Origin: Isoetes taiwanensis
Taxonomy: Eukaryota > Streptophyta > Lycopodiopsida > Isoetales > Isoetaceae
Length of the DNA: 64,000 bases
Assembly (NCBI GenBank): GCA_021234155.1
Contig: JAJEKV010000049.1
Span: 2,509,487 to 2,573,486 of the forward strand
Direction: 5' to 3'
In this document: piece by piece, positions 20,130-62,944 of the stretch
How the letters are laid out: each line of letters begins with the position of its first letter
Position numbering within the stretch: position 1 is the stretch's first letter
Made by a program: the position numbers and the translations under genes
The notes under the pieces: generated by a model
What the model saw: the letters and a program-made list of their open reading frames with translations, nothing else
What the model was told of the DNA's origin: nothing
Database searches by the model: none

Positions 20130-20612
20130 ATAACACACAACTACTATTAACATTATTAACACAAACCATTGCATTTAACACATTTAAATTAAAATCCCCC
20201 TTAAACCCCCTTTGGTTTGGGTGCATATTCACACGGGGGGTTACTCCGGGCAACGAGAGCTGTCGGATAGGCATATTTGCCCTTTATTCCAAGATCTGGA
20301 CCGTACATAGCGATCCTCGTTTGTGGGGTATGCATGTACAAGTTTTTGTATACTGTATATTAAAGTTTGCAAAATACTATAAGGTTTGAGAGAATGTACT
20401 TAATGGTGTTAATTTTGTACATGTATTGTAAATATATTTTTGGAGCTCTCATTTGCCCTCACGTAACCCCGTGTGAATATGCACCCAAACCAAAGGGGGT
20501 TTAAGGGGGATTTTAATTTAAATGTGTTAAATGCAATGGTTTGTGTTAATAATGTTAATAGTAGTTGTGTGTTGATTGTTATATTAAAAAAATTTTTGGG
20601 CCCTTCGGGCCC
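20130..20612. mobile_element. Fold-back (long inverted repeat) element
   Basis: The left arm (20130-20244, ending GGGTGCATATTCACACGGGG) is the reverse complement of the right arm (20462-20574, beginning CGTAACCCCGTGTGAATATG), with very few differences over about 110 bp. The inverted match continues imperfectly inward (CTCCGGGCAACGAGAGCT against AGCTCTCATTTGCCCTC). The unmatched core is about 200 bp and encodes nothing. The right arm is followed by a perfect hairpin, GGGCCCTTCGGGCCC, at 20597. A solitary arm of the same family lies at 11081. This looks like a non-autonomous MITE or fold-back transposon. Confidence 0.75.
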
Positions 20613-30950: not shown

Positions 30951-31890
30951 TTACACCGGATTAGAGGTGTTTGTGGCGTCGTCCACCTTCAATGCGGCAT
31001 CCTGGCGACGCCACTTGATGTGGAGCAGGAGGAGTGCGACGACGACGAAGACCCAGTAGAGAATGTAAGCAGAGAGGGTGCCGGTAGTAGCCTCGTTACG
31101 CCAACCAACGACGGCGTTAAGGAGGGACCACAAGTTATTGCCGTTGGTGCAGCACTTGAGCTTCCATATGAAGTGCTCGTTCTGGGTGTACTCCTCGAAC
31201 TCGTGGACGCTACCAGCAAACAATCCAGCTGCGATCACCAGCAGCAGCAAGGTTGCGGCCCCCATGAAAACCTTAAAGGCCGCCTTGTTGCCTCCCGTGT
31301 AGAGCAGGTACCCGACCAGGATGCCGCACGCGGCACCCCCGACGGCAGGGATCGGGTACGCAGTGCCAGATCCCTCCAACCCGATTCCGCCTAGAAAAAT
31401 AATTGCCTCTACGCCGGTATCAGAAACAGAGCATACCGGCTTTTAAACGACAACTCATTGCCGGATGCAGCCACGTCATTCGCCACGCTGTCGGATTTAG
31501 TGGTGGCATCGACCCTTCCGACTGCTTCTTCAGTAACCTTGGTGAGCTTCCGTTCCCATTTCTCTCGCCACGTGTCAATCCGAATCATGCCATGAGTGTG
31601 ATGAGTATGACTGCCACCAGGCCTAGGATCCCCTCCCACAGTGACTCTGTCCTGTCCCACGCATCCTTGGCTACTGTGTAATACAGGGATAAGAAAACCG
31701 CCGCTGCAGCCATACACGTCCCTACTCCGGCCAGCACTCCCATCCATACCTGCTTCTTCATCCTCCTCCGGCGTCCCGCATCCTCCACCATCTTGTTCAT
31801 CAGCGCCAGCATCACAGACAGAATTATCGACGCCTCCAGCGTCTCTCTGAACAGAATAAAGAACGCCGGAACGCTGAAAAGCTCCACCAT
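30951..31890 (-). pseudogene. FTR1-type high-affinity iron permease, frame-broken
   Basis: Reading leftward from ATG 31890: MVELFSVPAFFILFRETLEA opens with the R-E-x-x-E iron-binding motif inside the first membrane helix, as in FTR1/EfeU permeases. Further hydrophobic helices follow (WMGVLAGVGTCMAAAAVFLS; ILGLVAVILITLMA). The frame shifts near 31585, continuing as MIRIDTWREKWERKLTKVTE. It shifts again near 31405, where SRYALFLIPA should lead to the second REGLE-type motif. Only GVEAIIFLGGIGLE survives, so the R-E pair is gone. The C-terminal half (YLLYTGGNKAAFKVFMGAAT to TNTSNPV, stop at 30951) is intact. Total length (about 310 codons) is near that of the family. FTR1 moves ferric iron with a multicopper oxidase. 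The two lesions suggest a pseudogene, though assembly indels could contribute. GC content is higher than in the flanks. Confidence 0.75.
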
Positions 31891-34725
31891 TTTTACCCCC
31901 TGTTCCTTGCCTGATTCGCTCACAGGAAGTCTCCTCTTTTGCCTTCAAGCTCTTGAGACGGATCTTCTACGGCGAGGAGTTCGAAAACCCGGTACATATT
32001 ACCCCATTCTCCCGGGCAGGGGAAAAATCCCAAAAGGAGCCGAATATGGGCGGCCTACGGATTGCCAAACATGGCACGGCTAAAGATAAAGGTAGGGGAG
32101 GGTGACCCTCCTCCGTCGGATTACCATTCTTGGACTCTTTAACACCCAATTCCTCCTTTTCGTCCACTAGTGGACCTTCATTCGACCACCAGTTTCCCTT
32201 CGTCCGACGCTTGCGAGAAGTTCTAGATGCGGCATCGATCAAAGCAGGCGGCTTCATCGAGGGGTGCTCAGCTTAGTCAAAAACAAGTACTGTGACCTTC
32301 ATCCTTTGCCTTTTCCTTAGCAATTTGAGCTGCTTCAGCTTGAGAAAACAGATAATTTAGGCTTTTCTCTGTGTTTTCAATTCTGCAGTCATGAAAGCTT
32401 GAGCTAGGGTTTATCATTTACACCGTTTTTCTAACTTGGCACTGATCTGTTGGTAGCTGGGACACTACCACAGCATCAGGTTCTGTCAATAGAAAGAAGA
32501 AGCGTATCAAAAATCATCATTTTTATTTATACTCTTTGAAATAATGGGATTTAGATGTATGATTTGAAATATGAACTGATTCACCCCATGCATTGTGTTA
32601 TGGGATTTATCTGTTGTTTGTTAAAGGCAGCTAGAGTTTTCTGAATAGAAGCTAATGGACCAAATACCAAAACCACTGAGGCCCAATGTGATTATTTATG
32701 ACGTCCCTCATTTGTTCAATTGCTCATTCAACATCCTGCTTGGTTAAGGCTCAAAAATACCCTATTTGTTATTACTGATGAGCAACTTGGAAGTGCAAGT
32801 TTGTTAGTTGTCCCCTTGTGTTATCTGCAGTAAATTAGAAAATTGAGCCATGGCATTTAAGTTGTCATTCTTTTCATCTCAGATGCCTGCATACTTTTGG
32901 GTGCCCCTTTCTTCAAGCAGTACATACATTCACATATAGAAAAGAAAATCTTTGTAGGTGGCTTGCCCAACTAGATTGCTCAAGGAATTTTGCTAACTTT
33001 GAGATCAAGCAGATATCAGTGCACCAGATGGGGATGCATCTTAATGCAGTGAGGACGAAGACATGGCATTGGAGCAAACTGTATATACAAGTAGAGATGC
33101 TAGTGTTTTTGATAGGAAACACTAAGAAACAAGTCAAACAAACGACGACCAGGCATATGCCATATTAATGGAGCCAGTGGATAGAGAACCCGAAGTTGCA
33201 CAATTGCAGTTTCAACTGGTGAATACATTTCCCTGATGTGCTTCTAGGGCTTGGTCAATTGTTGGACATTGCAAGTCTGTAAATCTGATGGATGTGATAT
33301 CCTTTGTATCAGCATATGACAAGTAGAGATAGCAATGAGGAGGATATGGAATTGGGGATGATTGGCACAATACGTTTTGGGTATCAGGCACAGGGAAACT
33401 AGTCTGACGCAGATAGCACATTTACCAACATTAGCAGGGCCGTTAAATAAAAAACCATAAATAGCACAAGTGCATCATCGATCGGTAGATTCATTGACCT
33501 AATTTAGTTGGTAGTGTTAAAACTGTAAATGGTTTCTAACATAATCTGATTGCATCTTAGTGGCCAAATACAAGTACAATGAGGATAGTGCAATGAGGAT
33601 ATTGAGCAAATTTGATACACGAATAACTCGTTAAATGCCTATGTTTTGTCCTTTAAGGACAAAGAAACATGTAGAACACAGACTATGCCTGTACCAACAT
33701 CATAAACTTTGCTAGGTAGAGAAGCAAAAATAACGCAGGTGAATTTTGAGTTGATGAATATGGTGATGAGCAAAGTTATGTCCAATTCTATTCTGGTTAT
33801 AAAATGGCAGAAATTGTGATGCTAACCCATTGAGTGATGGTCTGCAGTGTCCAGGGAATACGGAATTAGATTCTTCTCCTCTGAGCCCTGAGGGCAAAAA
33901 AACAAGACGAACATAGACGCTGCATGGGGAGAGCTTAGCAGACATGCTAGACAGGGAAGCAGAAGTACCACAAGCAGAAGTACCACAGGTGCAGTTTCGG
34001 TTGATTATTTAAATAATACAGATATTATTAGTTAATCCAGCACAAATTTATAATCGTGTCTATCGTATCTGCAGATTTCCTTCATCCAGAGAACATGGTA
34101 AAATTCTTCTCTCATACTAGACAGACTTCATATTTGTCTCGTACTGCATTGAATGCAATCAACTTGTTAGAAAAAAATTTAGTGGTCAATTTCTAAATTA
34201 GTCTCTCTGCGCTGTGGCAATGGTGGGACAAGAAGTCATTATGTGACACCTTGCAGAAGCTGGATGGCCTATTTACCTGATAAATGAAGACTAGAAATGG
34301 CTAAATCAACAGATCCTCCAGAATGACTGGTTATACCACTTAAGGGTGGATAGCATATGAGCATGTATATAGTTAGAATGAAATTAGAGGGCCTGAACGC
34401 AGACAAGTTTACATTTTCAAACATTCCAAAGGCAGTAAATCACTGAACAGGGTAGAAGACAGTATATCATTGAACATGTTGAAGAGAACATTCATCGTCA
34501 TAAAGTTTGCTTCTGAGGTTGGTTCACAAAGTTTGCTTCTTCATTTGTTGTTTGAGAAGTAAAAGAGTCGGCATCTTCGTGCCAATACTTTTGTAGATTA
34601 TTTCTCATACTCATAAACATTTCGGTCATGTTTTGGTTTCAGGCCTCTAGAATAATGGCATAAATCTCTAAAAAAAATTGATATATTATTATCGTTATCT
34701 CGCAAGTAAGCAGTTGTAAAGGTCC
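31891..34725. other. Upstream flank and intergenic DNA
   Basis: 31967-32257 is a minus-strand open frame immediately upstream of the permease (PPALIDAASRTSRKRRTKGN). It may be 5' leader or chance. 32260-34725 shows no gene, only A/T-rich spacer with short shadow frames. Confidence 0.4.
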
Positions 34726-35559: not shown

Positions 35560-38254
35560 GAGCTTTGAGAAAGAAACTACACACTCTTGCATGAGTGTTG
35601 CATCATGCCTTATGGTTTCGGCGTGATCATCTTCACTGACCCTAACCAGGCAGTTGCTGATACAAGATTAGGAGATGAATTCTTGGGTGCCACCTTAATG
35701 AAGATATGTCCTGCCATCTATGAGATGCCAAGCTTGTGTTGAAATGCCACAAATCCATGACCTGGTGAGGTGGCCCAATGCTTTAGCGTTGGTGGATAAT
35801 GTCTCAGTGTCACGGCTAGTAAGGACTGTGAAAGAGCAGGTTAATGAGGTGGAACCTTATGCCATGCAAGTTGAAGTTCTGAAGACTCTAAAAAGACCTT
35901 ATAAAATGGTGAATCGCACACCACGAAAGTCGGCCAAGAATAGTAAAGCTGAAAGAAAGATGGCGGCGGCTGCCATTTTAGAGTTCAAATCTTCAATTTG
36001 TTGCATGCGAAGATGTTGTGCTAACTTCTCCACAGGTGAGATCACGTGCATGCAGACATTTTTTTGGAATATGAGTGCTGTAGACAGGATCAACTTTGCT
36101 TACAACATGTTGGACCTTTGCTCTGAAAATGGGCAGGTCCAAAAGCTCATGCTCAACAACAAGCAAATGTGCTTGAAGGCATGGCACAAAGCCTATGGTA
36201 TACCTATGTCCACTTTTTACAAGTGGCGTAAGCTTTTCCTAGCTGGACACAGAATTGCAGAACGTGGTAATACGGGTTCAAAGAAACCAAGGTCACACAT
36301 TCTAGCTTGAAATATTGTGTTATCCATGTACATAGACGAGAATGCAAAAACGATGCCCCACAGGTCAAAAATAACAAGTGACAGTGTGAGGGAGAATGTG
36401 AAGAGGCTCTCGTCCGTTCTGACCAAAAGAGACATTCTCCATGAGGTGACAGGCAAGCACATTTCTGCATCTTCATTCCTATCTGGATGGAAGGAACACC
36501 ACTCAGAGGTGGCTATAGCGAAGAGGATTGCATTCTCAAAGTGCAACAGTCGTATTGTAATAAAAGAGAAAATGGCTAAAACAAGAGATCCGAGGGAGAG
36601 AAGAGAATTGCAGATGGAAAGGAAGGCACACATGACAGCCCAGATATCTTGTAGGATCCTTTGCTGGTCGTGGAGGGCTTTATCACATCGTGATCCAGAG
36701 CATGCACTGACAATCATTCATGATAAAATGGATCAGAACAAAACCATGGTACCTAGACTAGAGAAGTTGGCAAAATCAGTATGGAGGGGAGAATGCTTGA
36801 AAGTCAGTGTTACAGGTCACGACCATGGCATAGGCGCCCTGGGCCATTTTTCCCTCGATCTATGGAAGGATGATTCTAATTTCCACATGGGATCTTTGAA
36901 CCACACACTTAAATCCCTTGAGGATGCTTTGGAAAACAATTGGGGCTATTTAAGAGATGCAGATCATTCTGATTGTGCATGGGGGGGCAACAATCCTTAA
37001 CTCAGATGCATTGAGGACTAAAGAAAAGAATAGCAATGGACAAGTGTTCTTAGCTCCACCAAAAGCTCCAGCCCACCCTAAACAGCCCCCAAGGAGACTC
37101 TATCTGCAACTAGACAATTGCTCTGGTCAGGACAAAAATAGATATCTTTTCTCTTACCTTTTTTATCTTGTATAGTTAGGGGTTTTTGATCAGGTCCAAC
37201 TTGGCTGCATGATGGTTGGCCACACCCATGATGGCATCGATGCACTATTTGGAAATTACTTAACTTTGCTGCACACGTCGGATGCACTCACTATTCCTGA
37301 ACTTATGCAGCTATTTCGAGAATGTGGCATCAAGGCACCGGCACCTTACCTGGTAATCGAAGTTCCTGATTAGAAGTCATTCGTGAAAGGTTACATTCCG
37401 GACAAGAAGGATCGCTTGATTGGTTACTTGGAGCCCATGCTTTTCAAGTTTTCCATGAGAGATGGTTGGCCGCTCATGTATTACAAGATGAGGCCAGGGC
37501 ATCGGGAATGGTTGCCTGAGAATGGAATAAGAATGTGGAAGACAGATGCTAATGGTAAGTCAACAATACCAATTGGAGTACCAAAGACTGCGAAGCCGTA
37601 TGCAACACTAATGGATATAGGTGCTTTGAGATCGTCCATTGCGAAGTACATGATGCACTGGGCAAATATCTCTCGTGCTAGAATGAACTCATGGTCCACT
37701 GCCTATATGAACGAGGTTATTGACTATTGGTCAAATTTGATGCATGCACTTGGGGATATTCCATCCAGGGTAGAGGAAATCAAAGACTTCTGGCCTCTAA
37801 CTAGACAGGCCATGCTAGATGAGCCTGATTCCATAATGGACGGCGAGTACATACCACCACCCCACTACGTCGGGCCTGCAAAGGATAAACCCCAAAACCC
37901 AGTTGAAATCTTCGACCCAGACCAGGATGTGAAGAAAGGTATGCTTTTGCTCATCAAACCAGCGGGCTCATGTCCTAGTGGATGGCCTTTGCTAAAGAGG
38001 ACCCTGTGCAAGACCCCACTCTGCCCCATTACGAAGAAGTGTTTGTATCTTGGTGGGAGCCTGTAGCAAGGAAAGGTGCATCTTATGCTCAAACAATATA
38101 GAGATTGATGGCCTTGCTATCAATATCTCAAAACCATAGATTATGGTTGGTCAGTTAAGGACATGCCGCAAATGGTTGTGACACCCACAATTGTAGCGGT
38201 TCAACTACATGAATTATTGACCAAAGAGGTAGCAGATGAGGGGAAAGATACTTA
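35560..38254 (+). mobile_element. Putative transposase relic, DUF7869-like family, copy A
   Basis: Plus-strand frames encode, in order: RCQACVEMPQ, a CxxC pair; CCMRRCCANF; a helix-turn-helix-like stretch WHKAYGIPMSTFYKWRKL; a C-x-x motif region AKRIAFSKCNSRIV; TIIHDKMDQNKTMVP; FSLDLWKDDSNFHMGSLN; LQLDNCSGQDKNRYLFSYLF; GHTHDGIDALFGNY; and a long C-terminal region from GYIPDKKDRLIGYLEPMLFK to VADEGKDT. The Asp in HDKMDQ, the Asp in LQLDN and the acidic residues after GHTH are placed like an RNase H-fold catalytic triad. I recall plant proteins of this pattern annotated as DUF7869, which an HMM search would need to confirm. A diverged copy lies at 42466-45583. The frame is interrupted about four times and the copy is inactive. 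No terminal repeats were found. Confidence 0.65.
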
Positions 38255-40560: not shown

Positions 40561-42018
40561 CAATATTCCATAAAGATTCCTCTAGATCCTTCAATGTTCC
40601 CAAAAATCCCCCTAGACTCCCTAAGATTCTACAAGGATTTCCATAAATTCTATACAAATTCTCCTCGATTATTTAAGATTCCCTTAAGATTCTATGAATA
40701 TTCCTATAGATTCTTTAAAATTCCATAAAGCTAGTTTAGATGCCCTAAGATTCCATAAAGATCCCCTTATACCCCTTGCCTCCCATTAAGATTCCCATAG
40801 ACAAAAATAGTGATAAACGGCAGAGGATAAAGGGCAGAAACACGTACAAATGGCACATAAATGTCATATGTATGCATTGATTTGTGCCATTTATACCTAT
40901 TTTTGTAGTAGTGATCCTCAAGGTTCTCTTAGATTTCTTCAAGATTCTCTGAGTTTCTATCAAGGTTTCCTTAGATTCCTCAAAGTCCCTTGAAGATTCC
41001 TCAAAATTCTCTAATATTCTATAGAGATTTCCTTTGATTCACCAATTTTCTATGAGGATTCTATTAGATTCTTCAAGATTACCTTAAGATTCTCAAAGAT
41101 CACCCTAGAATTTTCTAAGATTCCACAAAAATTTTGATATAGATTCCCTAGATTCTCTAAGATTCCCAAAAATTACTCAAGATAGCCCTAGATTCCGGAG
41201 GTTTCTTGAGATTCCGTCAAGGTTCTGTGAAGGATTCCCCTAGATCACTTGGATTTCCTTAGATTGACTAAGATTCTACAAAGACTCCCATAGATTCCCA
41301 TAGATCTACAAAGATTTCCATAAATTCTCCAATATTCTATGGGATTCACATGAATTTTCCTAAGATTCCTCTAGATCCCCTTAGATTCTCTAAGGTTCCA
41401 TAAGGGTTCCTGTACCATGAAGGACAATAAGAAATTGACCCTCTAAAACACACCCAGCATGAAAGATTTCCCTAGATCCAGAATTCCCTTAGATTCCCTA
41501 AGATTACTCAAAGATTTCCCTAGATTTCTCAATATTCTACGAGGATTCATAAGAATTTCTCGAATCCCCTAGATCCCCTTATGATTCTCCTATACCCCTT
41601 TAGATTCCTTAAGGTTCCATAAGGGTTCCCCAAGATTCTCATTAGATTTCCCTAGATTTCCAAAGATTATTGCAAGGTTCCTCTAGATTCTCCAGGATTC
41701 TGTATCGGTTCTCTTAAATTCCCTTAGATTGTATGGAGATTCCTCTAGATTCTCCAAGATTCCATCAAGATTCTTCTAGATTCTTAAAGATTCCATCAAG
41801 ATTTTCTTAGATCTTGTGAAGATTCCCTAGATTTTCAAAAATTCTATTGAGATTACCATAGATTTCATAAGGTTCTCCAGAGATTCTTCTAGATTCTCAA
41901 AGATTACCCCAAGATTCCTCTAGATTCTCCAAGATTTTATGTAGATTCCTACAGATTTTAGATTCTATGAAGATTCCCCTAGATTCTCCAAGATTTCATT
42001 AAGATTCCCCTAGATTTG
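40561..42018. repeat. 1.45-kb degenerate array of AGATTC-type units
   Basis: The whole stretch is built from variants of AGATTCCCCTAGATTC, TCCAAGATTC and TCTAGATTCTC, with a core of about 12-13 bp and a doubled period of about 25 bp. Almost every line carries three to five copies of GATTC. Strong degeneracy implies an old satellite-like expansion. It carries no coding frame. A 106-bp hairpin insert interrupts it at 40801-40906. Confidence 0.9.
40801..40906. mobile_element. 106-bp MITE-like hairpin inserted in the AGATTC array
   Basis: It begins ACAAAAATAG and ends with the exact reverse complement CTATTTTTGT. Inside, AAATGGCACATAAATG (40848) pairs with CATTGATTTGTGCCATTT (40875). It is foreign to the surrounding array. 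Confidence 0.6.
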
Positions 42019-42465: not shown

Positions 42466-45400
42466 TCACGATGCTTCAGCAACGGGCACTGGAATCTCGA
42501 CAGTGTTGGAGAGCTTCTTCCTGTTCGATGGAGCCCAAGCAAAGTCGATTGTCTCCAATTCAATGCGATCACTAGCAGTGGTTGGCCTCCATCTTTTCTT
42601 CCAACAGTTAACATAATTGGCTAGGTACACCTGGTTCCTTACGGGGACAGGCTCCCACCAAGTGACCTTCTCCTTTTTATCATCCATTTGGGGCTCTTCC
42701 GTGGCGTACCCTACCCATGTGGGACACAACACGTCATTAGGACGTGCCATAATGAACATACCCTTCTTCACATCCTTGAATGGATTGAATTCTGGTATGG
42801 GTTTATCCTTCAATGGTCCCACGTATGGAGGAGCGATGCTTGCAATTGGCTCCGCTACTGCAACCATTTCTGGAAGCTGAGCTCGTTCTTGCCTGGTGCA
42901 TGGCCAAAAGTCCTCGTAAGTGCCTTCCGGGCACGAAATCTTCCTTAGCTCCTGTAAAAGACCCATCCAATACTCAAATGTAGCCGTGAATTGTGCGCAA
43001 TAGTTGGCTGTTTCCGGGGTGCCCTGCTTGATTATGGAGATTGCAACCCAATGAATATGCTTGTGGATGCTGTTTCGCAACTGGCCAAGGTCTTTTACTG
43101 TTGCCTTTGGTTTAAGCAGCTTGGGTGTTCCAGTCGGCATCATGGGCTTCCCGTCTTCCCCTTCCTTCCACATTTTTATACCACCTGTAGGCAGCCAATC
43201 CAAGAAGCACGGACGGGTTTTGTAATACATGACAGGCCACTCACCATTCATTGCAAATTTGAATGTCAGAGGGGTGGTGTGGCCAGTCAATCTATCATCG
43301 CCGTCGGGTATGTACCCTTCTATAAACCCCTTCCAATCTGGCACTTATCAACAATGTATACTACAGGTGCGTTCAGATTGCATGTGTGGAACTCATATAA
43401 TAATTCGGGCATGGTCAGCACTTCGGCCTTCTTTAGAGTGGAGGAGAAGTTGTCAAACAAAGCATCAATGTCTTCGTGTGTATATTTAGACATCATGAAA
43501 CCCAACTCTATCTCCTCGAACACACCAAGATATACTAGGTATGAAAGGTACGAGAATACATACCTGTTTTTGTTTTGATCTGAAGCATTGTCCAGTTGCA
43601 GCATTAGTGTTCGGGGGAGGGGCTTGAAAGAAGGTCTTTCTGGTCTAGGCAAGCTCGCAGGGATGTTGCTATTGGTGAGTGCCAATTTCGATTTGAGCGC
43701 TGCATTGTTACGCAAGGAAGTCACCCAAGCCGAGTTGATGTTTCCGGCATTGTAAGATGGCCTCCTGGATACTCATGAACCATCTCGAGCCTTCTCAAGA
43801 TGCTATTCAAAGAACCCACATGGAAGTTCGAGTCTTCTGGCCATAGATCCAAAGCAAAGTTTCCATAGCTTCCCCTCCCATGGCCATGAGTGAGAGCACC
43901 CATCAATGATGTTTTGAGTTTATCCAGTCTCCAAAGTGACTTCACCGATTGCTGCAATTTTGGAATTACTGTCTTTGCCTGGTCCATCTTATCATGAATA
44001 ATACAAACATAGTCTTTGGGATACCTATGGAATATAATCTCCATGACCAATACTGGGTACGACAGGAGGCTTGCTCCAATCTGTGTGCTCTTCTCTGGTC
44101 ATGCAATATCCTCCTTTCTGCCTCATCCTTTGTCTTCAACAGCTTCGTACGAATGACCTCGCATGTATCACATTTAGAGAACAGAATTTTTTTTGCGATA
44201 CTGACATCCCTAAAGCTCCTTTTCCAAGTTCTATGAAACCCCGCTGGCGAGACTTTCTTGCCTGTCAGTGCCATAACTTCTACATTCACCTCATCTAGGA
44301 TGCTTGTTTTCGTAAACATTGCAGGCAACTTCCTAATGTTTTCCCGGATGCCATCTTCATTCCTTTGACTACGGTGAGGCAAGGATTCGCAATTCTCCCT
44401 TACGAACATGGAGAAAACAGCCTCGGATGCTAAGGTGGATGCATGAGTCTTCAAACTACCACAGTTGCCGTGCTCTGCTTTGCGAGCACCCTCGATGTAT
44501 TGTGCTTTCCATTTCAGATATCCTGACTTTGAGATTCCCAGCCCAAGGTACCAGGCTCTCTCACAGACTAGCCTGCTATGCAACACCAGACGTTCCACTC
44601 GATGGCCTTTCATGTTGTTCCCAAGCATGTCATAAAGAAATGTCACCCTGTCGCTAGACTTCATTGCATAGAATTCCTTGCGCATGTTTATGACCTGATT
44701 ATATAAGAGCTTTGCACAAAACTTGTGTTTGCAACACAACGTCGTTCGATATTTCAAAATAGCCTCCCTAGAGCTAAGGCGTTCAATCTCAGGAACCACC
44801 TACGCTGACGGGAACCACCTACGTTGTCTCAGGAACCACCTACGCTAACGGGAGTGGAAAGTGTACTTGCGCCTCTCGAAGTTTGGATGCTTCTCAATAA
44901 CAGAGCTACCTTGACTTGACAAAGTATTTGCTTGCTCGGTTGGCTTTGCAGTCAAGATCTCAGACACCTTTACACCATCCACTGTAACATATTCATTACT
45001 CCACCTTACGAGCATACCTGCTTTTGGTACCTGTAAACAAGCCTGACAACGTAAATTCACTTCAGCAGAAATCTGGTAACCCTCAACAGACACTCCAATG
45101 CATTTCAACCCTAAGAACTGGTCGCATACTGCATCATCTAGGCCTGTAAAGGATATAATCCCTTTCCCGCAGGAATGGAGTCGCAAGAGTGCCATATTTC
45201 ACAGTCTTCTCTAGTAAAGTGTATCTGGTATGGGGGATAGGTTCCATAGTAGATTCCACTCTCTGTTTTTTGGAGGTGGACGAGACATCTTCTATATTGG
45301 ATTCACGAACGTCTTCCTCTCTCCAAAGAATGAAGGACCCTTTGGCCCCTCCTATAGTTTCTTCATCCTGAGTAAGCCATGGGAGGGCGTGATGCTCCTC

Positions 45401-45583
45401 AAAAACCTCTTGAACATCAACACTGACAGCTCCAGCGGGGATGGTTCTGAAATGGCACTGGTTAGAGTCTCCAGCGAATCCTTTGGCAATGGGACGACCA
45501 TCCTTGAAGATGTACACTTCCTGCACAACAGATTGAATCAGAACATGGGGCCAGGCTAGTGAGAACAGAACATAATGCAACAC
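42466..45583 (-). mobile_element. Putative transposase relic, DUF7869-like family, copy B
   Basis: Reading leftward. The first frame (45583-45134) contains VEVFEEHHALPW-like text and GGAKGSFILWREEDV, resembling the DUF8039-type domain found in plant transposon ORFs. The next (45195-44845) has LRCQACLQVPKAGMLVRWSN, matching copy A. Then 44799-43966 carries CCKHKFCAKLLYN, an HTH-like CERAWYLGLGISKSGYLKW and AKKILFSKCDTCEV. 44050-43721 has IIHDKMDQAKTVIPKLQ and NFALDLWPEDSNFHVGSLN. 43724-43320 has LMLQLDNASDQNKNRYVFSY and THEDIDALF. 43344-42466 is the C-terminal region, ending PVPVAEAS. Domain order equals copy A at moderate identity, so the two are old paralogues. A handful of breaks leave it inactive. 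Its 5' end abuts the first palindrome cluster (45608), and it points away from the ParB/methyltransferase-like gene. Confidence 0.65.
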
Positions 45584-45607
45584 AATCAGCCGTGATTCGG
45601 GACCTCA

Positions 45608-46043
45608 TATCGGGCGGATGCCCAATTTGACCCATGATGCACTCAGCACGGAAGGCCATATTGGACGGACATCCAATTACAGGCCCGAGCCAGTTTGGCA
45701 TATCCAATCGGTTCTGAAATTGGGCGGGCGCCCAATTTGGTTCCGAAGCATCGCTTAGGAGGCCACTGGGAAACTGATATTGGACGGCCGCCCATCCTAA
45801 CTCCCATCCTAACAGCAGGCAATCCAAATTGGGTGCCTACCGAATTTGTTTTACATTTCTTGCACTTCCGAATTGGATGCTGTGCACGTCGCACACCGGC
45901 CAAAGTAAATTGGGCGCCCACCCAATTTGTCTTCCATTTCCTGCAGGTGGGAACACATGAGCGCCTTTATTGGGCGGTCGCCCGAATTGCATGTTGTGCA
46001 CGTCGCTCTGCAGGCTAGCAAGATTTGGCGGCCGCCCACATTT
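45608..46043. repeat. Palindrome cluster 1 (8 sites) upstream of transposase copy B
   Basis: Sites of the 22-bp palindrome (half-site AAATTGGGCG, two bases, then CGCCCAATTT) or close variants start at about 45608, 45658, 45717 (perfect), 45778, 45829, 45907, 45968 and 46022. Spacing is 50-80 bp. Flanks differ from copy to copy, so this is not a simple tandem repeat. Most mismatches are C-to-T or G-to-A at the CG steps. Confidence 0.9.
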
Positions 46044-46296
46044 GGGCCAGGTGTTTCTGGAGGGGTCCTCAAAATGGGCTGGTTTTGAAGATTGTAAGAA
46101 CTTGACTCTCCAGAGTGGGCGGGACATCTATTTGTATCAGCACTTGGACTGAGTCCCGAAGCTGCAATCTTAAAAGCATTGAATTGGCAGGCCAAGCAGA
46201 GGCAGATTCTTTAAGGCTACACCATTGAGGAAGAGGGAGCTCAATCAAGTCACCAAGATAAAGTATTGTGTCTATTAGCTAGTAAGCATGGAAGCA

Positions 46297-46366
46297 CAAA
46301 ACTTGAAATCCAGGTGCTGACATCAGTAAAAAACATCTTCCAAAAAATGTTTTACCAGTTGAGCTA
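46297..46366 (-). mobile_element. Possible tRNA-derived SINE head
   Basis: On the minus strand TAGCTCAACTGGTAAAAC (46366-46349) is close to a tRNA A box (TAGCTCAGTTGGTAGAGC). About 50 bases later CACCTGGATTTCAAGTTTTG stands where a B box is expected, but it is degenerate. The end of the element is not visible. Confidence 0.35.
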
Positions 46367-46519
46367 AAATGAATTCGAACTCAAGAAACTGCCAAAATCA
46401 CAGATCTACCTTATTTAAGAAAAATTACATTGGGAGTGACTGGCGCCGTGTAAGTTCTTCGATCAACTATATTAAAGTAGGCGCTCAAGATTGATGGATT
46501 CAAATGCAGAAAGCAATAG

Positions 46520-46604
46520 ACATAAATGGGGGGAATTCGAGATCCGAATTTGAATTACTCAGCAATTTCAAACTCAGAATTCAAATTCTCCCCCCATTTA
46601 TGTG
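46520..46604. repeat. Inverted repeat with ACATAAATGGGGGG ends
   Basis: ACATAAATGGGGGGAATTCG (46520) pairs with AATTCTCCCCCCATTTATGT (46585-46603). The inner part pairs imperfectly. A separate perfect 10-bp inverted repeat, ACACGTGCGC/GCGCACGTGT, follows at 46643 and 46669. Confidence 0.8.
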
Positions 46605-47498
46605 TATTTAATAAAGGCCAAAGTTTATTAATGTTATTTGGAACACGTGCGCGATGTCATTATATCTAGCGCACGTGTGTATATTCAAATTTTTTTGAAT
46701 TTCAAATTTGAATTGTGGACCCTTGGTCCATCAGCCCCCCTTCTTTACTTTCAAATAAGGGTTGCCATGTGGCGCCCCACATCTTCATGGACGCAGGATT
46801 GCCATGTGGCATCCCGGATTCTGTTCAAGCACGGCGGCTGCCCATTATTTATGGACTACAACGGTTCATTATAACCGGAATTTGACACTTGTCCTCGGCC
46901 AGTGCAACCTCGGTGCATGCCTTACTGATAAGTATTGTTTTTTCTGGATAGCCGCATTTTCAATAGTCCAAAGCTCCGCTTCCAAAACAGGCGCTTTGTT
47001 GTCACCATATCTTACGACAAGGCGCCTATCCACATCAAGGTGAAATGTCCTGCTCTGCATTGCTGATGGAAAGTCGCCCCACCAAAGGAGACAAAGGTAA
47101 TGCTTGCATCACTACCGGGTTACTGTGACTGTTTATAAATTTTTTAATATTGCTTCCCAAAACAACATGGCATCTATTCTATTTTCTATATTCCCCCATT
47201 TGCTTTAAAAGAAGCCTGCACCTCTTGATTCTGAGTCTGTCTTGAAGTTACTGCAATAATCAACTGTTTTACCTTATAATACCTCTCTATTCTATCCTAT
47301 AACTATCCCCCAGTTCCTCTAAAAGAAGCTTGCACCTAATTCTTGTACTGTCCTGAAGTTGCTGCAATAATCTACTGCCTCTCCTTGAGCTACCTCTCTC
47401 ACAAGTACCTTCTGTTGTCGTACTGAAACTTGATCAAATTGGGAGCCTACATGTTTTGACCCCATGTCCCTTACCATTTCGCAGCAGTTCACACTCGC

Positions 47499-48002
47499 AA
47501 ATTGGGCGCCCGCCCTATTTCTCTGTTAATCACAGCTCTGGGCAGGTCATGTGCTTGAAAGTCGAACCACCTCACCTTGCTTCCCACTCAGTAAATAGGG
47601 TGCCCACCCAATTTCACTGAGCAAGTGTATCTGCATCAATTGCAAGCACTTAGTAAATTGGGCGTCCGCCCATTTTACCTAGGAAGTGTGTATGCCTCAA
47701 GATCATCCACCGTTAGACTTGTCAGGTTGGTCGCTAGTCCTGGACCTGGCAAATTGGGCGGACGCCCAATTTCAGAAGGACATGCCTCTCCCTTGACAAA
47801 ATGTGCGCCCGCCCAATTTTCTGCAATGCTTTCTGATCATCGTGCACTTCATAGCGGCTCTTGAAATTGGGTGCCCGCCCTGAACCATTCCACCTTACTT
47901 CAAGCCAAGTAAATTTACCTCTGAATTGTATGCCTAATTTGGGGAACCCACGATTTCTTCAACACCTTGCGCCTCTTGGCAAATTGGGCGCCCGCCCAAT
48001 TT
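47499..48002. repeat. Palindrome cluster 2 (7 sites) upstream of the ParB/methyltransferase-like gene
   Basis: Sites start at 47499, 47593, 47654, 47751 (perfect), 47798, 47864 (right half decayed) and 47981 (perfect). The last lies 81 bp before the first ATG of the plus-strand gene at 48083. In this cluster most sites read with CC in the centre, whereas the right-hand clusters mostly read GG. Confidence 0.92.
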
Positions 48003-49746
48003 ACTGTAAGTCGGTCAACTTGTACTTCATAGTGTCTTTTGCGAAGCAGTATTTAATTCTTGTTTGACGCAATGCAGGACTAATGGCAAGGACAAAACAG
48101 ATTGCCCACCTGCCTGGCTATGGACCTGGGATACCGCAGGCCGTTGCTGCTGCGAAAGAGACAGAACATGATGCGACATTTCAGGGGATTGATGTAGTTC
48201 CAGAAGAAATCACATCTGTTGCTGACAAGAACACGTGGTGCATTGAAATTGGAAACGTAAATCCTAAGTCGAGCACAAACCATCTCAAGGATTTATGTTT
48301 GTATTTTGCCGTGCCAGGGACAAAAAAGACAAGCAATGCTGGGATAGCAATTGATATGGGGGTTAACACAGAAGTACCCCGCGAGATAGAGGTTTTTGTA
48401 AAAGACGTATTGGACAAGTGCTTCCGTGCATACAGGCTACCCCTTGCCACTTATGATCCCCAACTAATGTCAGCAAGCATTACCGAAAATCAAAACTCCT
48501 GCGTTGCAAAGGGTTGGCAGCTGAACTCATACGAGAGTTTGGAAAGATCTGGAATTAGAAAGCGTGGAGACATTATAGACGGCTTCCACATAGTGAGGCA
48601 GTGGATTCTTGATCACAAGCAGACTAGGTCGAAGGGCTTGTATACAGAATATCATGGGAAGGCCCAGCCAAAAATGTACGATTCGACCTAGTTAAAGACT
48701 CGATATGGAGTTCCCAAAAAGGGAGATGCAGATAAAAGTGCAGAGAAGTCTAAGAACGTAGTAGTTGACAAGGGCACTGCTACAAAGAAAAAAAGGTCAT
48801 CTTTGACAACGAACCCCAGCATAGAGACACGAGTTGCTATGGTTGGAGGTATGGAGAAGAGAGCACGATCCTCTGATCCGAGCACTAGTGCCAGAGAATC
48901 TTCTGAACATTCTGCTGACGTTCGGTTGATAAAGAAACGAAGAACAGAAGAGCAAGCAGGCACCTCCTCTAAGAAAGGAAGACGCCCCACTCCACCTCAG
49001 AGTTCATCTGAGACAAGCGAGGACAGTGAAACGCGTAGTGATAGTGTAGAAAGGGGATCAATGCAACTTGTACAGTCTACAGCCTCTACTGGGGAGTTAA
49101 CACAGGAGAGTAGGCGTGAATTATCTCAGAGCGCCATGTTGAACATCAAGCATAGGGACAGGATTTATCCACTAGGTGTTGGGTTCGAAATTGATGTCGA
49201 CATATTCAAGATGCATCAAGCCCCTGCCAACATGACCTGCAGGGTCATCAGTGCAGAACACGTGGATACCCTTTATGAATCTTTCATAACTATGCAAATG
49301 CATCCTCCGTGTGCAGATGTCGTTCCATTTGACCCGTCAACAGGCGTGCTATCAAGTGGAAGAGAGCAAGTGATTTGGACAATGCGGAATTCTGGATCGT
49401 CAATGGAAATCACACTACAGTCGTTGCTCAGATCCTTGTGAACCATGCTTTGGAATTGCCCCCAGAAAGGAAGCATTTAAAAGATTTGATCTTTTTCTTT
49501 TATGCCAAGCGAAAGTGTCGTGTACTGGCTGGAAACCTAACTCCAACGGAATATGTTAAGGTCAGCCAGGAAACAAATGATATCATACTCAAGACAATTC
49601 ACGCAGATGTCTTCTTCGAGCAGGTCCAGCAGCTTCACAATCAGTGGGAACTGTATGGCAAGCCCAAGAAAGGGAAGCATGGTCAATCAACGGAAGGCGC
49701 TTACTCTGTAAGTTATCTCCCCATTAACCCCTGTCCCCCGCAATCC

Positions 49747-49922
49747 AAATCGGGCGCCCGCCCAATTTCAACCATGCCATCGTTATTCCAATCTGTTGTA
49801 ATATGTACATCTCCAATCGAGTGCCCATGCATGTTCCCTCCAAATAGGGCGGTCGCCCAATTTCAAACCCTTAATATTTATCCATATTGTAGTTTCGTCC
49901 AATTTTGGCGGGCGCCCAATTT
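49747..49922. repeat. Palindrome cluster 3 (3 sites) inside an apparent intron
   Basis: Sites start at 49747, 49842 and 49902, all between the GTAAGT donor (49709) and the GCAG acceptor (49988). The intron consists largely of these sites and their spacers. Confidence 0.85.
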
Positions 49923-50798
49923 GAGGATGCGTCTACAAAAATTTTCTTGTGTCGTCTCAACTTGTCTTACAGTATCTTTTGTATGCAGGAATGGGTAGCT
50001 ATAGCGAAACAGACCCTGAAGAAAGCGAGCATGCGGGACTATGATTACTTCGTCTATCTTGACGAGCCAACTTGGAATATGTGCACGCGTGTCGCTCAAC
50101 TTTTTTATGAGGACGGGCTGAAGGATGAGAATGGCGACAGAATTGAAGTCAAAGATCGTCTAAGGATGTTCACAAACAATTCTTGTAGGCCACTGAAGTC
50201 TATGCACCCTATGGACTTGCAGAGATTAATGAGGGGGATCATGGCAGGCACCACGTTCATCAAGGCCACGAAGGCTTATAAAGGAAGGCGTGTCATGAAG
50301 ACAAGAGCGCAAGAATCAAGGAAAATTGGCACTGTTAGCGTGCATTACTGAAATACCTGAGAGAGGTGAAGAAGTTGAAAGTCGAACATATGGATCAAGT
50401 CAAACAGACTCATCCCATATTCACAGAGAATCCCATACTAATGTTTTGCTAACAGTGTCAGTGATTGGACAGAGAGTCGAAAAGAAGCTGAGAAGGAATG
50501 AGTGCTTGGCTGCAATGAAAACAATAGATGGTGGTAGTCGGGTGTGGATTGCAGCCTACCAGGATTCCAAAGCAAAGTCAGGGTCAACCTCTAGAGTTCG
50601 TGAGCTTCAGAGCCTTGTCTTGGTCATGTACGTGGCCCGAGACCAAGCGACAACACCTGCTATGGATGACTTGAATGTATGCTTTATAGACAGTGACCAT
50701 TCACAACAGCATTCGAAACTTCCCCAGCATCTGAAAGAGGCAGAGGACATCGAGAAGAACTTACCAGACGTGGAGTGCTCAGCAGGTAATATTCTTTG

Positions 50799-50820
50799 AA
50801 ATAGGGCGGTCGCCCAATTT
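50799..50820. repeat. Palindrome site inside the second apparent intron
   Basis: One site (left half AAATAGGGCG, one mismatch; right half perfect) lies in a ~67-bp intron bounded by GTAATA and TTTCAG. Confidence 0.85.
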
Positions 50821-51771
50821 ATGTGTTATTTTTGCTAAAATAGTTTCTCTTTCAGCGTATTGGTTGTATCGTCCCTGGGGTGATAAGAGTGCAGCAGGTG
50901 GGTCTGGACCTCTCGTTCCGAATCAACTACAAGCCAAGACCTGCACGTATTTGTGCACAAACTAATGATGGAGGGTTGCAGCGTTCTTGATTTCTTTTCT
51001 GGAGATTCATTCAGTCGTGCAGCACTATGCGAAGGCTACAAAGCAACTTCCTTCGAGATAGACGAGAACCTGCGGCTCAAGCTAGTGCAGATCTTCGATC
51101 AGCTAGAAATAATGTTGGACGAGAAGAAATCTTTGGCCCACCGGAGGCAGAAAATTGCAGAGGGCAAGAAAGAAAAAATCTGGTTCCAAGGCTTTACAGT
51201 TACCAATCGCTGCCCCATCAGCAATTCCATTCTCTGCTCAGACAGTTCAGGAATTGCAGTCCACGCTCCACCTGAGTAAGGAATCCCTTGCAGAACAAAT
51301 AAAGAAGGCTGCAGGAATTGGAAGTAAGGATCTATCCATCTTCCAAAAGAAAAAAGAAAAAATTAATATGTTGGCAGGAAAGCAACTAGTGAACACTCAG
51401 GATGTGATTGACAGCAGTTCAAAATTCCATGAGATAGTGGACAATGATCGTGAGGAATCGTTTGTCAAGGACACACCTCAAAGTCAACAGGAAGAAGTGC
51501 AAGAGCACGCACGAGAGCATGCGGAAGAACAAAGGCAAGTAGAAAATCTGGACATAATATCCGATGTAGAGAAGGAGACAGGTGAGGTAGAGATAGGTGA
51601 GGGAGAGACAGGTGAAGAAGGTGGCTTACTGAGCAATGAAGAATTCATTAACAGGATGGAAGCTATAAAGCAAGCTGCCCAGCAGGAGCAAGATCAACAA
51701 AATGACATGGACAAGCCTGAAGAGAACCCCCCAGACCCCTGAACCAAGGTTGGAGCTCAGGAGAGTTGCTG

Positions 51772-52167
51772 AAATTGGTCGCCCGCCCAATTTTAGCAGT
51801 TACATCCGTCGAACCAAGGTTATATCTTATGTGATTTTGTATCTAGTACTTGTATCTGTGACAATTTGAAAAATGAAATACAATTTTTGTTGTAATGATG
51901 TTTATGGTATTGGATGTAATTGGTTGTATTCTAATAGAACATCGTCTGACGTAATTGGGCGGGCGCCCAATTTGTCCAACCCGGGTCGCGATTCGTAGGG
52001 TGGGCTGAGGCTCTACATGCAAAAGCAAATTGGGCGAGCGTCCAATTTGCCTGAGCTAGAAGCGTCACCTCATAGTAATTGGGCGGGCACCCAATTTGAA
52101 CTCCGGGGAGGCGATATCAATTTTAGTAGACTTACCTTTGCAGGGAAATTGGGCGGGCGCCCTATTT
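51772..52167. repeat. Palindrome cluster 4 (5 sites) between convergent genes
   Basis: Sites start at 51772, 51952, 52027, 52076 and 52146. They fill the gap between the stop of the plus-strand gene (51742) and the stop of the minus-strand ORF (52219). Confidence 0.92.
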
Positions 52168-52218
52168 GTATTTTAGCAGTATTAATATGAAGACATTACA
52201 ACAAGAGTGCAACTACTA

Positions 52219-52930
52219 TTACTCTTCTGAATCGTCATCACCAGGCGCTCCAGAGATCCTTTCGATCATGAACATTTGATGCTCTCTATTCCATATAAGA
52301 TGGATGATAACATCGAAGGGATCAGGATAATGGCGAGGATTGAGAGCAACAGTGGTCATCCAGTCTTCAAGTGGTATATCTCGCTGGCGGCACTGCTTGA
52401 AGTCCTTGTGATTCATCTTGCAAGTAATGGAATCATGTTCAGCACCAGAATGTGTCATAGCTAGACGGAAAATGTTGATGGACTTCACGAATTGATGCAT
52501 AGATATACCCACCAAAATTATTGATGGTATATACGTCGACATTATTGCGTGTACATACTACGTATGAAACCCAGTAATTTCACTGCATGGGACATCAATA
52601 ATTTCGCGGGTATAAATGTATCTGCAGTGTATTGCATAATGCATTCATCTGCTATGTCTCGAAGGCCTAGTTCTGCAGAGGTCCCAATTGCCTCCTCCTC
52701 CTGAACATCTCGACACCATTTGTTGCTTTATGACCTTCAATGATCTTCATGCATGCCTGCTAAAACCCTGACTGCATGGTATAGCAGCCGGTCGAGAGAG
52801 AGATTCCCCCGGCGAGTACCGTGTTGTCATCAATATTGTTTGGGTTCCAGAGCGCGATGCTTATGAGATTGATAAAATCATCAATGACTATAATCTTTGA
52901 ATCATGGCAGTCATAAGAATTTATATCTGA
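52219..52930 (-). CDS. Unidentified minus-strand gene of the palindrome block, degraded
   Basis: The 3' frame (52542-52219) reads MSTYIPSIILVGISMHQFVK, then DIPLEDWMTTVALNPRHYPD, and ends ISGAPGDDDSEE. Upstream on the same strand, DDFINLISIALWNPNNIDDN then TVLAGGISLSTGCYTMQSGF (about 52895-52770) also looks coding, in a different frame. An intron or breaks may separate them. No family is recognised. It lies between palindrome clusters 4 and 5, and no palindrome falls in its coding part, so it probably belongs to the same element. Confidence 0.4.
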
Positions 52931-53046
52931 TATGACTGTATTATGTAGCCTTCACACGTGATCTTATAGTGTTGAATTACTTATATTTGTGTTGGATTAA
53001 TTATATTTGTGACAGTCTGAATTTCCATTTTCTCGCAACAACAAGG

Positions 53047-53135
53047 AAATTGGGCGGGCGCCCAATTTCCTTTGGAGGCATCCACGGAACTTTGTTCAGA
53101 CCATTACCAGGGCAAATTGGGCGGGCGCCCAATTT
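53047..53135. repeat. Palindrome cluster 5 (2 perfect sites), right-most
   Basis: Perfect sites at 53047-53068 and 53114-53135, both with a GG centre, 67 bp apart. No further site appears to the right, so the element's right end probably lies beyond this but before the LINE piece at 54565. Confidence 0.95.
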
Positions 53136-53330
53136 GCACACAACAAATTGGTGTCTTGAAATTGTGGGTTATGCTCCTTCATGAAAATAGATAGAACCAG
53201 TTCTATTCATATAGAAATGCAGTACATAGATGGAGTACACATATTATAAAACCAATGAAACATCATGCCTCGACGTAGATAGTTCGACACAAATAGAATA
53301 GACAATAGAAAATAGCAGGGAGTCCAGGTT

Positions 53331-53828
53331 TCAATCAATGCCTAGTTCTATCTGAATAAGATCCCCCAGATCGAACTCATCAATGTAACTTCTGCTATAC
53401 ATATCCAGCCAGTCATGCAATTCAAGGATCGAGTGAGGAGTGTTGACAACGAGCTTGGTTACCAAAGCTTCATGCTGCCTTTTTTCCTTCTTATAAAGCT
53501 TCTTAAATAACGGTCTGAATGTGTTGTGCAGCTAAACATCCTCTATTTTGAGTAGCCTCTTCAGGGCCTCTCCCCTGTAAACATGGCATTTCAATGATAT
53601 GAGGCAGGCTTCCAGCTCCACCCTACTGAGTTGATCATTGCTTTCCTTTAACAACCCTTCCCCATGGAGGAGCTTCATGACTTGCCCACTGATTTCTTTT
53701 GTGCCATTCTGGTTTATCTCATTCTGCACCTCAACCTGCAACTGATTTGCATGGGCTAAGATTGGCTCACTAATATGGGACTGCATTTCAATCATTGTGA
53801 GTCCATACCGGCGTCTTGTTTCAACCAT
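53331..53828 (-). pseudogene. Unidentified minus-strand ORF pair of the palindrome block
   Basis: The first frame (53828-53532) reads MVETRRRYGLTMIEMQSHIS and is helical and Glu/Gln/Leu-rich, ending LKRLLKIEDV. After a single in-frame stop the same frame continues LHNTFRPLFKKLYKKEKRQH and ends DLGDLIQIELGID at 53331, about 165 codons in all. The length and one interruption suggest a recently inactivated small gene. The family is unknown, and the helical character would suit a coiled-coil or DNA-binding accessory protein, but that is guesswork. Confidence 0.4.
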
Positions 53829-54564
53829 TCTGAGTGTTTTGATATGAATCTATGCTGCGCAGATTTGCAAAACAAAGCTTGACTAGCAACACCTCTTATA
53901 AAGAAGGCGCTTTTCTGCGACACCGAGTTTGTTGTGTCTTCCTTGGCTTAATAGAAACAACACCTGCCATCTCACCTACCTGCACGATTCCCGAAAATTT
54001 GCATCATTCTATTAAAAAAAACCATAATATTCCAGAAATTTGCGTCCATTTCGGAGGCATATGGACTTAGGGAAAGTCCATATATAATGAAACAGTGCTT
54101 ATACGTGAAAAAACATGGATTGATCCCTTAATGTTTTATTGGAATATATGATATTTTTGTATGATATTTGTGTCATGTATCGATAATTTTAGGTCTGCAA
54201 TTGCCTCGCAAATAATGCAATATGTTATTATCAAACCTAATATTTTCATCTAAATGCTGTTCAATTTTGGTCTCATCTATCTTAGCAACTTGCTCTTCAG
54301 TTTTGCATATTTCAATTTGCATATGAAATGATACACGTGGATTGCAACCTTCTGTTATTTATCAAGTCCAAAAAAAAAAGATTAAAAAGAACAAAAACCC
54401 CCTAGAAGACAACAGCAAGTTGGCGTGATTTTGGAGTTGACATAATCCCAATTTAATAGGATGATGGTTCAATACTTATAGTAGTTGTATGATCCTCTTG
54501 AAATTCCAGCGGCAATACCCCTGCAGATGGGTCCAGCACTAGTAATAATGCAGATGTCACCACA
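53829..54564. other. A/T-rich flank, no gene recognised
   Basis: Contains no palindrome and no convincing protein. It probably includes the junction between the palindrome block and the flanking LINE DNA. I could not identify terminal repeats. Confidence 0.35.
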
Positions 54565-62316: not shown

Positions 62317-62944
62317 GCGTCGTTGAACGACGTCTGCTCTGACGTGTCATGACATCTGGCCCGCCAGCGTGGCAAGCCAACAAGCCACGCGGGCACTCAG
62401 GGCACGTCAGACTAAATAGACGTCGTTCAACGACGTCTGGCTGACGTGGCATGACACGCAGGCCGTCCACCGTGGCAACAGCAGCAGGCCACGCAAGCCA
62501 ACGCGACACATCAGTTATAAGAGACGTCATTTAACGACGTCACGCTGACGTGTCATGACACATAGGCCGGCCGTCTTGGCAACAGCAGCAGACCACGCAA
62601 GCCGACGCGACACGTCAGCTATGACCGACGTCGTTAAACGACGTCTCCCTGATGTGTCATGACACGCAGGCCAGCCGTCGTGGCAACAACAGCAGGCCAC
62701 GCAAGCCGACGCGACACGTCAGCTATGACCGACGTCGTTAAACGAAGTCTCGCTGACGTGTCATGACACGCAGGCCGGCCAGCTTGGCAACAACAGTAGG
62801 CCACGCAAGCCGACGCGACACGTCAGCTTTGTCTTGCGTCGTTAAACGATGTTTGCGTCGTTTAACGACGTCGTCGTTCATAGACGTCGTGACGTCGTTG
62901 GTCAATGTGCAGACGTCGTTCAAGGTCGACGATCCCTTGTAGTG
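62317..62944. mobile_element. CACTA-like terminus with ~104-bp palindromic subterminal repeats
   Basis: Six units start at about 62317, 62420, 62524, 62628, 62732 and 62837 (period 103-105). Each opens with an ACGTCGTTNAACGACGT-type palindrome and carries TGACGTGTCATGACAC, GGCAACA.CAG and CACGCAAGCC. The array ends CCCTTGTAGTG at 62944, the reverse complement of CACTACAAGGG, the usual start of CACTA (En/Spm) terminal repeats. Subterminal arrays bound by the element's own protein are typical of CACTA transposons. The other end and a transposase gene are not visible here, so this is a truncated or non-autonomous copy. Confidence 0.65.

Follow-up and report, generated by a model that had tools for sequence, protein, structure and literature searches.

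The window analysed here is a stretch of 64,000 nucleotides from Isoetes taiwanensis (assembly GCA_021234155.1, contig JAJEKV010000049.1, positions 2,509,487 to 2,573,486 of the forward strand), with positions counted from its first base. It reads as plant nuclear DNA. Within it, a 7.5-kb block (45607–53135) carries a family of dispersed palindromes that lie between, within and beyond two broken genes: gene A on the reverse strand, which encodes a DUF7869 protein (PF25273, E-value 1.8e-28 on the piece 43320–43724), and gene B, a large gene on the forward strand whose reading frame is broken in several places and interrupted by an in-frame stop near 48689. Gene A is transcribed away from the left cluster of sites, and gene B is oriented away from gene A. 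Together, the DUF7869 gene and the large broken gene on the opposite strand give the block the look of a decayed mobile element. The genes, the inferred introns and the sites are listed in Table 1.

Table 1. Genes, inferred introns and palindromic sites of the block.
Feature	Position	Strand	Mismatches	Remarks
Gene A	42466–45583	-		DUF7869 protein; broken in frame; ends from open frames
Gene B	48083–51742	+		Broken; reading frames and GT-AG borders used to infer exons
Inferred intron 1 of gene B	49708–49988	+		GT-AG borders; three sites; one frame open throughout
Inferred intron 2 of gene B	50786–50855	+		GT-AG borders; one site
Site 1	45607–45628		3	
Site 2	45658–45679		5	
Site 3	45717–45738		Perfect	
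Site 4	45777–45798		5	
Site 5	45826–45847		4	
Site 6	45907–45928		1	
Site 7	45967–45988		4	
Site 8	46021–46042		4	
Weak, mostly half site (unnumbered)	47436–47457		7	9.5 bits; tabulated by eye
Site 9	47499–47520		1	
Site 10	47593–47614		3	
Site 11	47655–47676		1	
Site 12	47751–47772		Perfect	
Site 13	47798–47819		2	
Site 14	47864–47885		6	Damage in right half
Site 15	47981–48002		Perfect	
Site 16	49747–49768		1	Within inferred intron 1 of gene B
Site 17	49842–49863		1	Within inferred intron 1 of gene B
Site 18	49901–49922		2	Within inferred intron 1 of gene B
Site 19	50799–50820		1	Within inferred intron 2 of gene B
Site 20	51772–51793		1	Directly 3' of gene B stop
Site 21	51952–51973		1	
Site 22	52027–52048		1	
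Site 23	52076–52097		2	
Site 24	52146–52167		1	
Site 25	53047–53068		Perfect	Symmetry reaches 28 bp (53044–53071)
Site 26	53114–53135		Perfect	

The palindrome has the form AAATTGGGCG-NN-CGCCCAATTT. A pattern search of the window at up to three mismatches returned 20 copies, all of them in the block, and the same search of 100 dinucleotide shuffles returned none. Counted cumulatively, the block contains five perfect copies, 15 with up to one mismatch, 18 with up to two, 20 with up to three, 23 with up to four and 25 with up to five, against zero at up to five mismatches in the remainder of the window. The first two matches outside the block require six mismatches, and simulated sequence would be expected to give about 2.4 per 64 kb. 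Scoring with a weight matrix identifies 26 clear sites (17.0 to 38.3 bits), all in the block, and the best score outside it is 6.9 bits, at 32043; this gap is somewhat flattered because the matrix was built from the 27 tabulated sites and thus scored on its own sites, although the mismatch counts are unaffected. Two weaker matches in the block score 10.9 bits (46827) and 9.5 bits (47436). The 27 sites were tabulated from 31 block matches with up to seven mismatches, leaving out those at 46112, 46827, 47935 and 49884; the site at 47436 was retained by eye because its left half is intact, albeit with a lower score than 46827. An earlier note on this DNA had reported about 26 dispersed copies in a 7.5-kb block, perfect copies at 45717, 47751, 47981, 53047 and 53114, and none elsewhere in the 64 kb, all of which we recovered. 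Of its limits for the block, 45608–53135, the end stands and the start does not, as the first site begins at 45607.

A scan of the rest of the window for palindromes and repeated 8-mers revealed no comparable dispersed family. The sole other group of similar palindromes lies in a tandem repeat at 62.4–62.9 kb (62378–62897), which has a 104-base unit with CpG-containing palindromes within it. Searching viral contigs for the motif pattern gave no match, and in genome contigs the pattern turned up once in each of five bacterial contigs; by our estimate, chance alone would give about four matches to 18 specified bases among 257 billion. A prokaryotic origin of the motif was rejected, as these five single-site contigs are near the chance level.

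Each site is composed of two ten-base halves flanking two central bases, and the 27-site matrix holds 28.1 bits of information in total. The central dinucleotide is GG or CC in 17 of the 27 sites and the symmetric GC in only two, so that the two central bases, previously described as free, do split the site but are not fully free. Of the 54 bases immediately outside the halves, 42 are G or C, and the true site is therefore probably 24 bp long. Mismatches to the motif occupy 57 of 540 positions (10.6%) over the 27 sites, and 12 of these are C-to-T or G-to-A changes at the two CpGs. The CpG is intact in 23 of 27 left halves and 20 of 27 right halves; the observed/expected CpG ratio in the surrounding non-coding DNA, with the sites masked, is 0.54–0.69.

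None of the 27 tabulated sites is coding according to the inferred gene models, in a block that is 44% coding (naive p = 1.6e-7), and their non-coding position rests on those models. This comparison used exon borders that lie a few bases away from the GT-AG borders, with no site affected. Eight sites lie just upstream of gene A and eight, one of them weak, upstream of gene B, placing 16 of the 27 between the divergent genes; three others are in intron 1, one is in intron 2 and seven are downstream of gene B.

The copies resemble each other in the palindrome and hardly at all beside it. Over 40 flanking bases and 702 pair and orientation combinations, mean in-register identity is 25.0%, compared with 25.8% for non-coding pieces drawn at random from the block. 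There are one clear exception, the pair 45826/45907 (60%), and two lesser ones, 49747/49842 (47.5%) and 47593/47655 (gapped similarity). The smallest start-to-start gap among the tabulated sites is 47 bp, and adding the weak matches that were dropped would give gaps of 46 and 17. The eight sites of the left cluster are more evenly spaced than chance (p = 0.00045), and the three other clusters tested show no significant evenness (p = 0.061, 0.14 and 0.33; all values uncorrected). The earlier note had stated that the copies share only the palindrome and that their spacing is irregular; the former is true overall and fails for one to three pairs, and the latter does not describe the left cluster. 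Mean mismatches decrease from left to right, being 3.25 in the left cluster, 2.5 upstream of gene B (including the weak site at 47436), 1.25 in the introns, 1.2 at 51772–52167 and 0 in the last pair. We read the array as old local duplications with eroded flanks in which the motif has been kept.

The dyad symmetry, the ~28 bits of information, the non-coding position given by the gene models, the retained CpGs and the dissimilar flanks make sites for a dimeric protein the best reading of these palindromes. More fully, they would be a cis-acting array of binding sites in a decayed plant transposon-like element, for a dimeric protein encoded by the element itself, and we hold this reading with about as much confidence as doubt. 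From these features we infer protein binding, its encoding by the element, the dimeric state and an effect of binding. An element-encoded sequence-specific dimeric protein, now or formerly present, would read the palindromes across the non-coding DNA of the element, and by binding at promoters, in introns and in downstream DNA it would mark the element's own non-coding DNA or shield it. The outcome may be anti-silencing, or regulation of the element's own genes, by analogy with VANC in VANDAL elements and TnpA in Spm. The previous suggestion of maintained dimeric-protein sites rather than a satellite thus persists as the best reading, for putative sites, although its ParB component does not. 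Gene B is the candidate for the binding protein because it lies among the sites.

Several observations weigh against this. Purging of insertions or duplications from exons would equally produce a non-coding placement, so that the naive p-value locates the sites without proving function. One frame is open through intron 1 (49375–49998), and should this intron remain unspliced, three of the 27 sites would be coding. Copying of the bare motif would explain, with no selection at work, why it has diverged so little. The stretches searched for terminal inverted repeats or a target duplication yielded none that was convincing, and we therefore infer the extent of the element, its being a single element and the membership of gene A. 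A second copy of gene A (35720–38066, forward strand), which is diverged and has in-frame stops, has no sites near it, and the sites thus do not simply follow gene A. Gene B gave no significant match in Pfam, PHROGs or NCBIfam, no significant match in PDB sequence searches (best E-value ~1) and, in protein searches with its pieces, no relative in viral contigs; an AlphaFold single-sequence model of a gene B piece was unusable, with a mean predicted local distance difference test score (pLDDT) of 37.5.

To our knowledge, the best-described transposons that defend themselves by means of a sequence-specific binding protein are the VANDAL elements of Arabidopsis. The parts of PMC5735166 and PMC10398659 that bear on these elements place the VANC21 and VANC6 motifs in their non-coding regions. 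The block resembles them in having many copies of one short motif, in non-coding DNA only, in a plant element, and reading of the motif by an element-encoded protein is shown there, whereas here it is proposed. The VANC motifs are 8–9 bases long and form recognisable tandem repeats, in contrast to the 22-bp dyads with hardly any flank similarity described here, and the main text of PMC5735166 contains no word beginning with "palindrom-". The non-coding placement is thus seen in the block (0 of 27 coding by the gene models) and the tandem-repeat arrangement is not. The likeness is drawn from the arrangement of the sites. The VANDAL system also comprises a Mutator-type transposase and the VANC protein, which binds the motif and removes DNA methylation; in the block frames scanned, DUF7869 was the one Pfam match up to an E-value of 1.

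CACTA elements such as En/Spm offer a second parallel. Their subterminal repeats form palindromes and, according to PMC2613891, are recognised by a DNA-binding protein that the element encodes and that differs from one element to another. Arrays of repeated palindrome-forming motifs are common to both, with a TnpA-like reader in CACTA elements and a proposed one here. The CACTA repeats are subterminal and accompany CACTA terminal inverted repeats, with a 3-bp target duplication, and a tnp2 transposase, unlike the present sites, which lie between genes and in inferred introns. We found no CACTA-type (TAGTG-type) right end between 53100 and 54600, and no Pfam match to a tnp2 transposase, up to an E-value of 1, in the block frames scanned. 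We looked for tandem structure, CACTA ends and tnp2 without finding any of them, and therefore place the array in neither the VANDAL nor the CACTA class, although in function it would be most like VANC targets and CACTA subterminal repeats. If the element does read its own palindromes, it would represent a second design, based on long dyads at promoters and within introns and apparently on a different protein, and would point to self-recognition arrays as a general strategy.

The product of gene B had been labelled ParB-like, and the comparisons do not bear this out. Its best Pfam match is to DUF3634 (E-value 0.12), in a scan that included pieces joined with X at the breaks, and with a home-made ParB profile of 32 rows a joined gene B piece ranked 47th of 984 reported among 1260 sequences searched, in a test for which gene B is broken inside the relevant region and the profile has no algal relative as a seed. 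The resemblance to ParB is one seen by eye: the stretches ISAEHVDTLYESF ... FWIVNGNHTTVVAQ occur in ParB order, and they are collinear in the ParB-profile alignment, far below significance. Also by eye, VLDFFSGDSFSRAALCEGYKATSFEID resembles methyltransferase motif I, with one residue missing. When a home-made N6/N4 methyltransferase profile (13 rows) was used, the frame 50887–51276 was the top real frame in the window (E-value 1.7), below a joined copy of the same piece (E-value 1.2), and its alignment covers the motif-I-like stretch. None of the three forward frames of gene B contains the catalytic motif [DNS]PP[YFW]. Clustered palindromes near a possible ParB-like gene recall ParB/parS systems, in which palindromic partition sites are clustered near the ParB gene; here, there is no ParB profile support, the setting is eukaryotic, and sites are found also in inferred introns.

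A closer parallel is a gene of the Ectocarpus element Sola1-1, described in the main text of PMC12477816, with ParB-like and DNA methyltransferase parts on the strand opposite the transposase, which is proposed to bind and modify its own element. This appears to be the nearest published counterpart of gene B, in that a large gene lies opposite another element gene (gene A on the reverse strand, gene B on the forward strand). The two differ in that the domains of gene B are without profile support and the role of gene A as a transposase is a presumption, and the main text of PMC12477816 has no word beginning with "palindrom-". Gene B could accordingly encode an accessory protein of this type, ParB-like and an N4C/N6A methyltransferase, with the palindromes as its recognition and modification sites and bacterial-type methylation marking the non-coding DNA of the element and keeping it open. 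We put this forward as a tentative possibility. It draws on the by-eye stretches, the top-ranking methyltransferase frame and the opposite-strand layout, and, from part of PMC12695648, on the role of N6-methyladenine (6mA) as a permissive-chromatin mark in several eukaryotes, albeit through the unrelated AMT1 pathway; it is opposed by the lack of any significant profile match to ParB or a methyltransferase, the missing catalytic motif and shortened motif I, and the broken state of gene B at this locus. That a land-plant element carries a bacterial-derived ParB/methyltransferase-like protein along with its own dispersed, parS-like palindromes of 22–24 bp, placed at promoters, in introns and in downstream DNA, is, in our judgement, doubtful. 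If it did, the transposon would find and mark only its own non-coding DNA, by a self-recognition that evolved independently of VANC and whose target array is visible in the sequence. The palindromes would then be a candidate kind of target for the ParB/methyltransferase accessory proteins of algal transposons, and the proposal of binding and modification made in the main text of PMC12477816 would be testable with one defined oligonucleotide.

An ancient satellite or series of local duplications, in which motif units of ~50–60 bp multiplied in the non-coding spaces, eroded and are now functionless, is unlikely. Gaps of 47–70 bp do recur, the pairs 45826/45907 and 47593/47655 have related flanks, and the spacer orientation is cluster-specific (CC in five of seven sites at 47499–48002, GG in five of six at 51952–53135), as if each cluster had grown from its own founder in opposite orientation. 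However, the motif differs at only about a tenth of its positions and the flanks are at background, whereas erosion alone should strike both, and the intron and downstream clusters are hundreds to more than 1000 bases apart. Tandem Repeats Finder reported no array whose repeat unit is the motif, and one 12-base duplication that overlaps the end of site 4. An ordinary minisatellite was rejected on the Tandem Repeats Finder result, and a simple satellite on the background similarity of the flanks.

The 22–24 bp unit might itself have inserted, or been copied by repair, without function, which would leave copies alike in motif and not in flanks; with no direct repeat seen by eye beside the sites in the site listing, no copies at up to five mismatches elsewhere in the window and an evenly spaced left cluster, we consider this very unlikely. 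Hairpins acting in transcripts, through processing or as small RNA, would suit the self-complementary sequence and those sites that lie downstream of gene B or in its inferred introns. Facing positions of the dyad have both changed in five cases against 3.1 expected (p = 0.17, a test of low power), and in three of the five the changes match, where 1.8 would be expected (p = 0.27, a weak test with few changes). Covariation across the dyad is thus not above chance, so that DNA recognition fits better than an RNA hairpin, and what is kept seems to be the individual bases and not their pairing. The position of 16 sites between divergent genes and the absence of any Rfam match at the gathering threshold in the window point the same way, and hairpins were rejected on the covariation result, low in power as it is, as highly improbable. 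Capture of host transcription factor sites by the element would explain sites upstream of both divergent genes and is scarcely credible, since the rest of this 64-kb stretch of the genome has no clear copy and the site holds ~28 bits, far above what a host transcription factor usually needs. Recognition by a dimeric protein of the element continues to account best for the array.

Gene A could be followed through its second copy, whose same-sense pieces of at least 35 residues are 31–56% identical to gene A in translated comparison. Three pieces of this copy gave no Pfam match over the cut-off, and its AlphaFold single-sequence model was unusable (mean pLDDT 33.9). Pieces of gene A gave nothing significant in PDB sequence searches and no relative in viral contigs. 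A degenerate AAGATTCC-type minisatellite adjoins gene A at 40570–42010. A Pfam scan of the block, covering three frames each of gene A (reverse), gene B (forward) and 52160–54200 (reverse), gave no match up to an E-value of 1 other than DUF7869. An open frame of 98 amino acids at 53532–53828 on the reverse strand, with no Pfam match, has an observed/expected CpG ratio of 0.14, unlike the block, and may mark DNA outside the element. Two further repeats lie within the block. An imperfect inverted repeat of ~98 bases at 46515–46612, in the gap between the two clusters of upstream sites, forms a far better fold than shuffled sequence (z = -8.2) and looks like a small insertion of the miniature inverted-repeat transposable element type, and a tandem duplication of ~111 bases at 47173–47399, its copies 75% alike, contains no palindrome.

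Elsewhere, the window contains no tRNA and includes a long pentatricopeptide repeat gene (PF13041, E-value 5e-114), a Ras-family piece and a reverse transcriptase piece. It also carries an FTR1 iron permease gene in two pieces (30954–31944, reverse strand), presumably an unusual gene for a plant-like window. The 8-mer ACGACGTC is enriched across 58–64 kb. A perfect 107-base inverted repeat (20132–20238 and 20467–20573) has 228 bases between its arms, and the arms have a relative near 11.1 kb.

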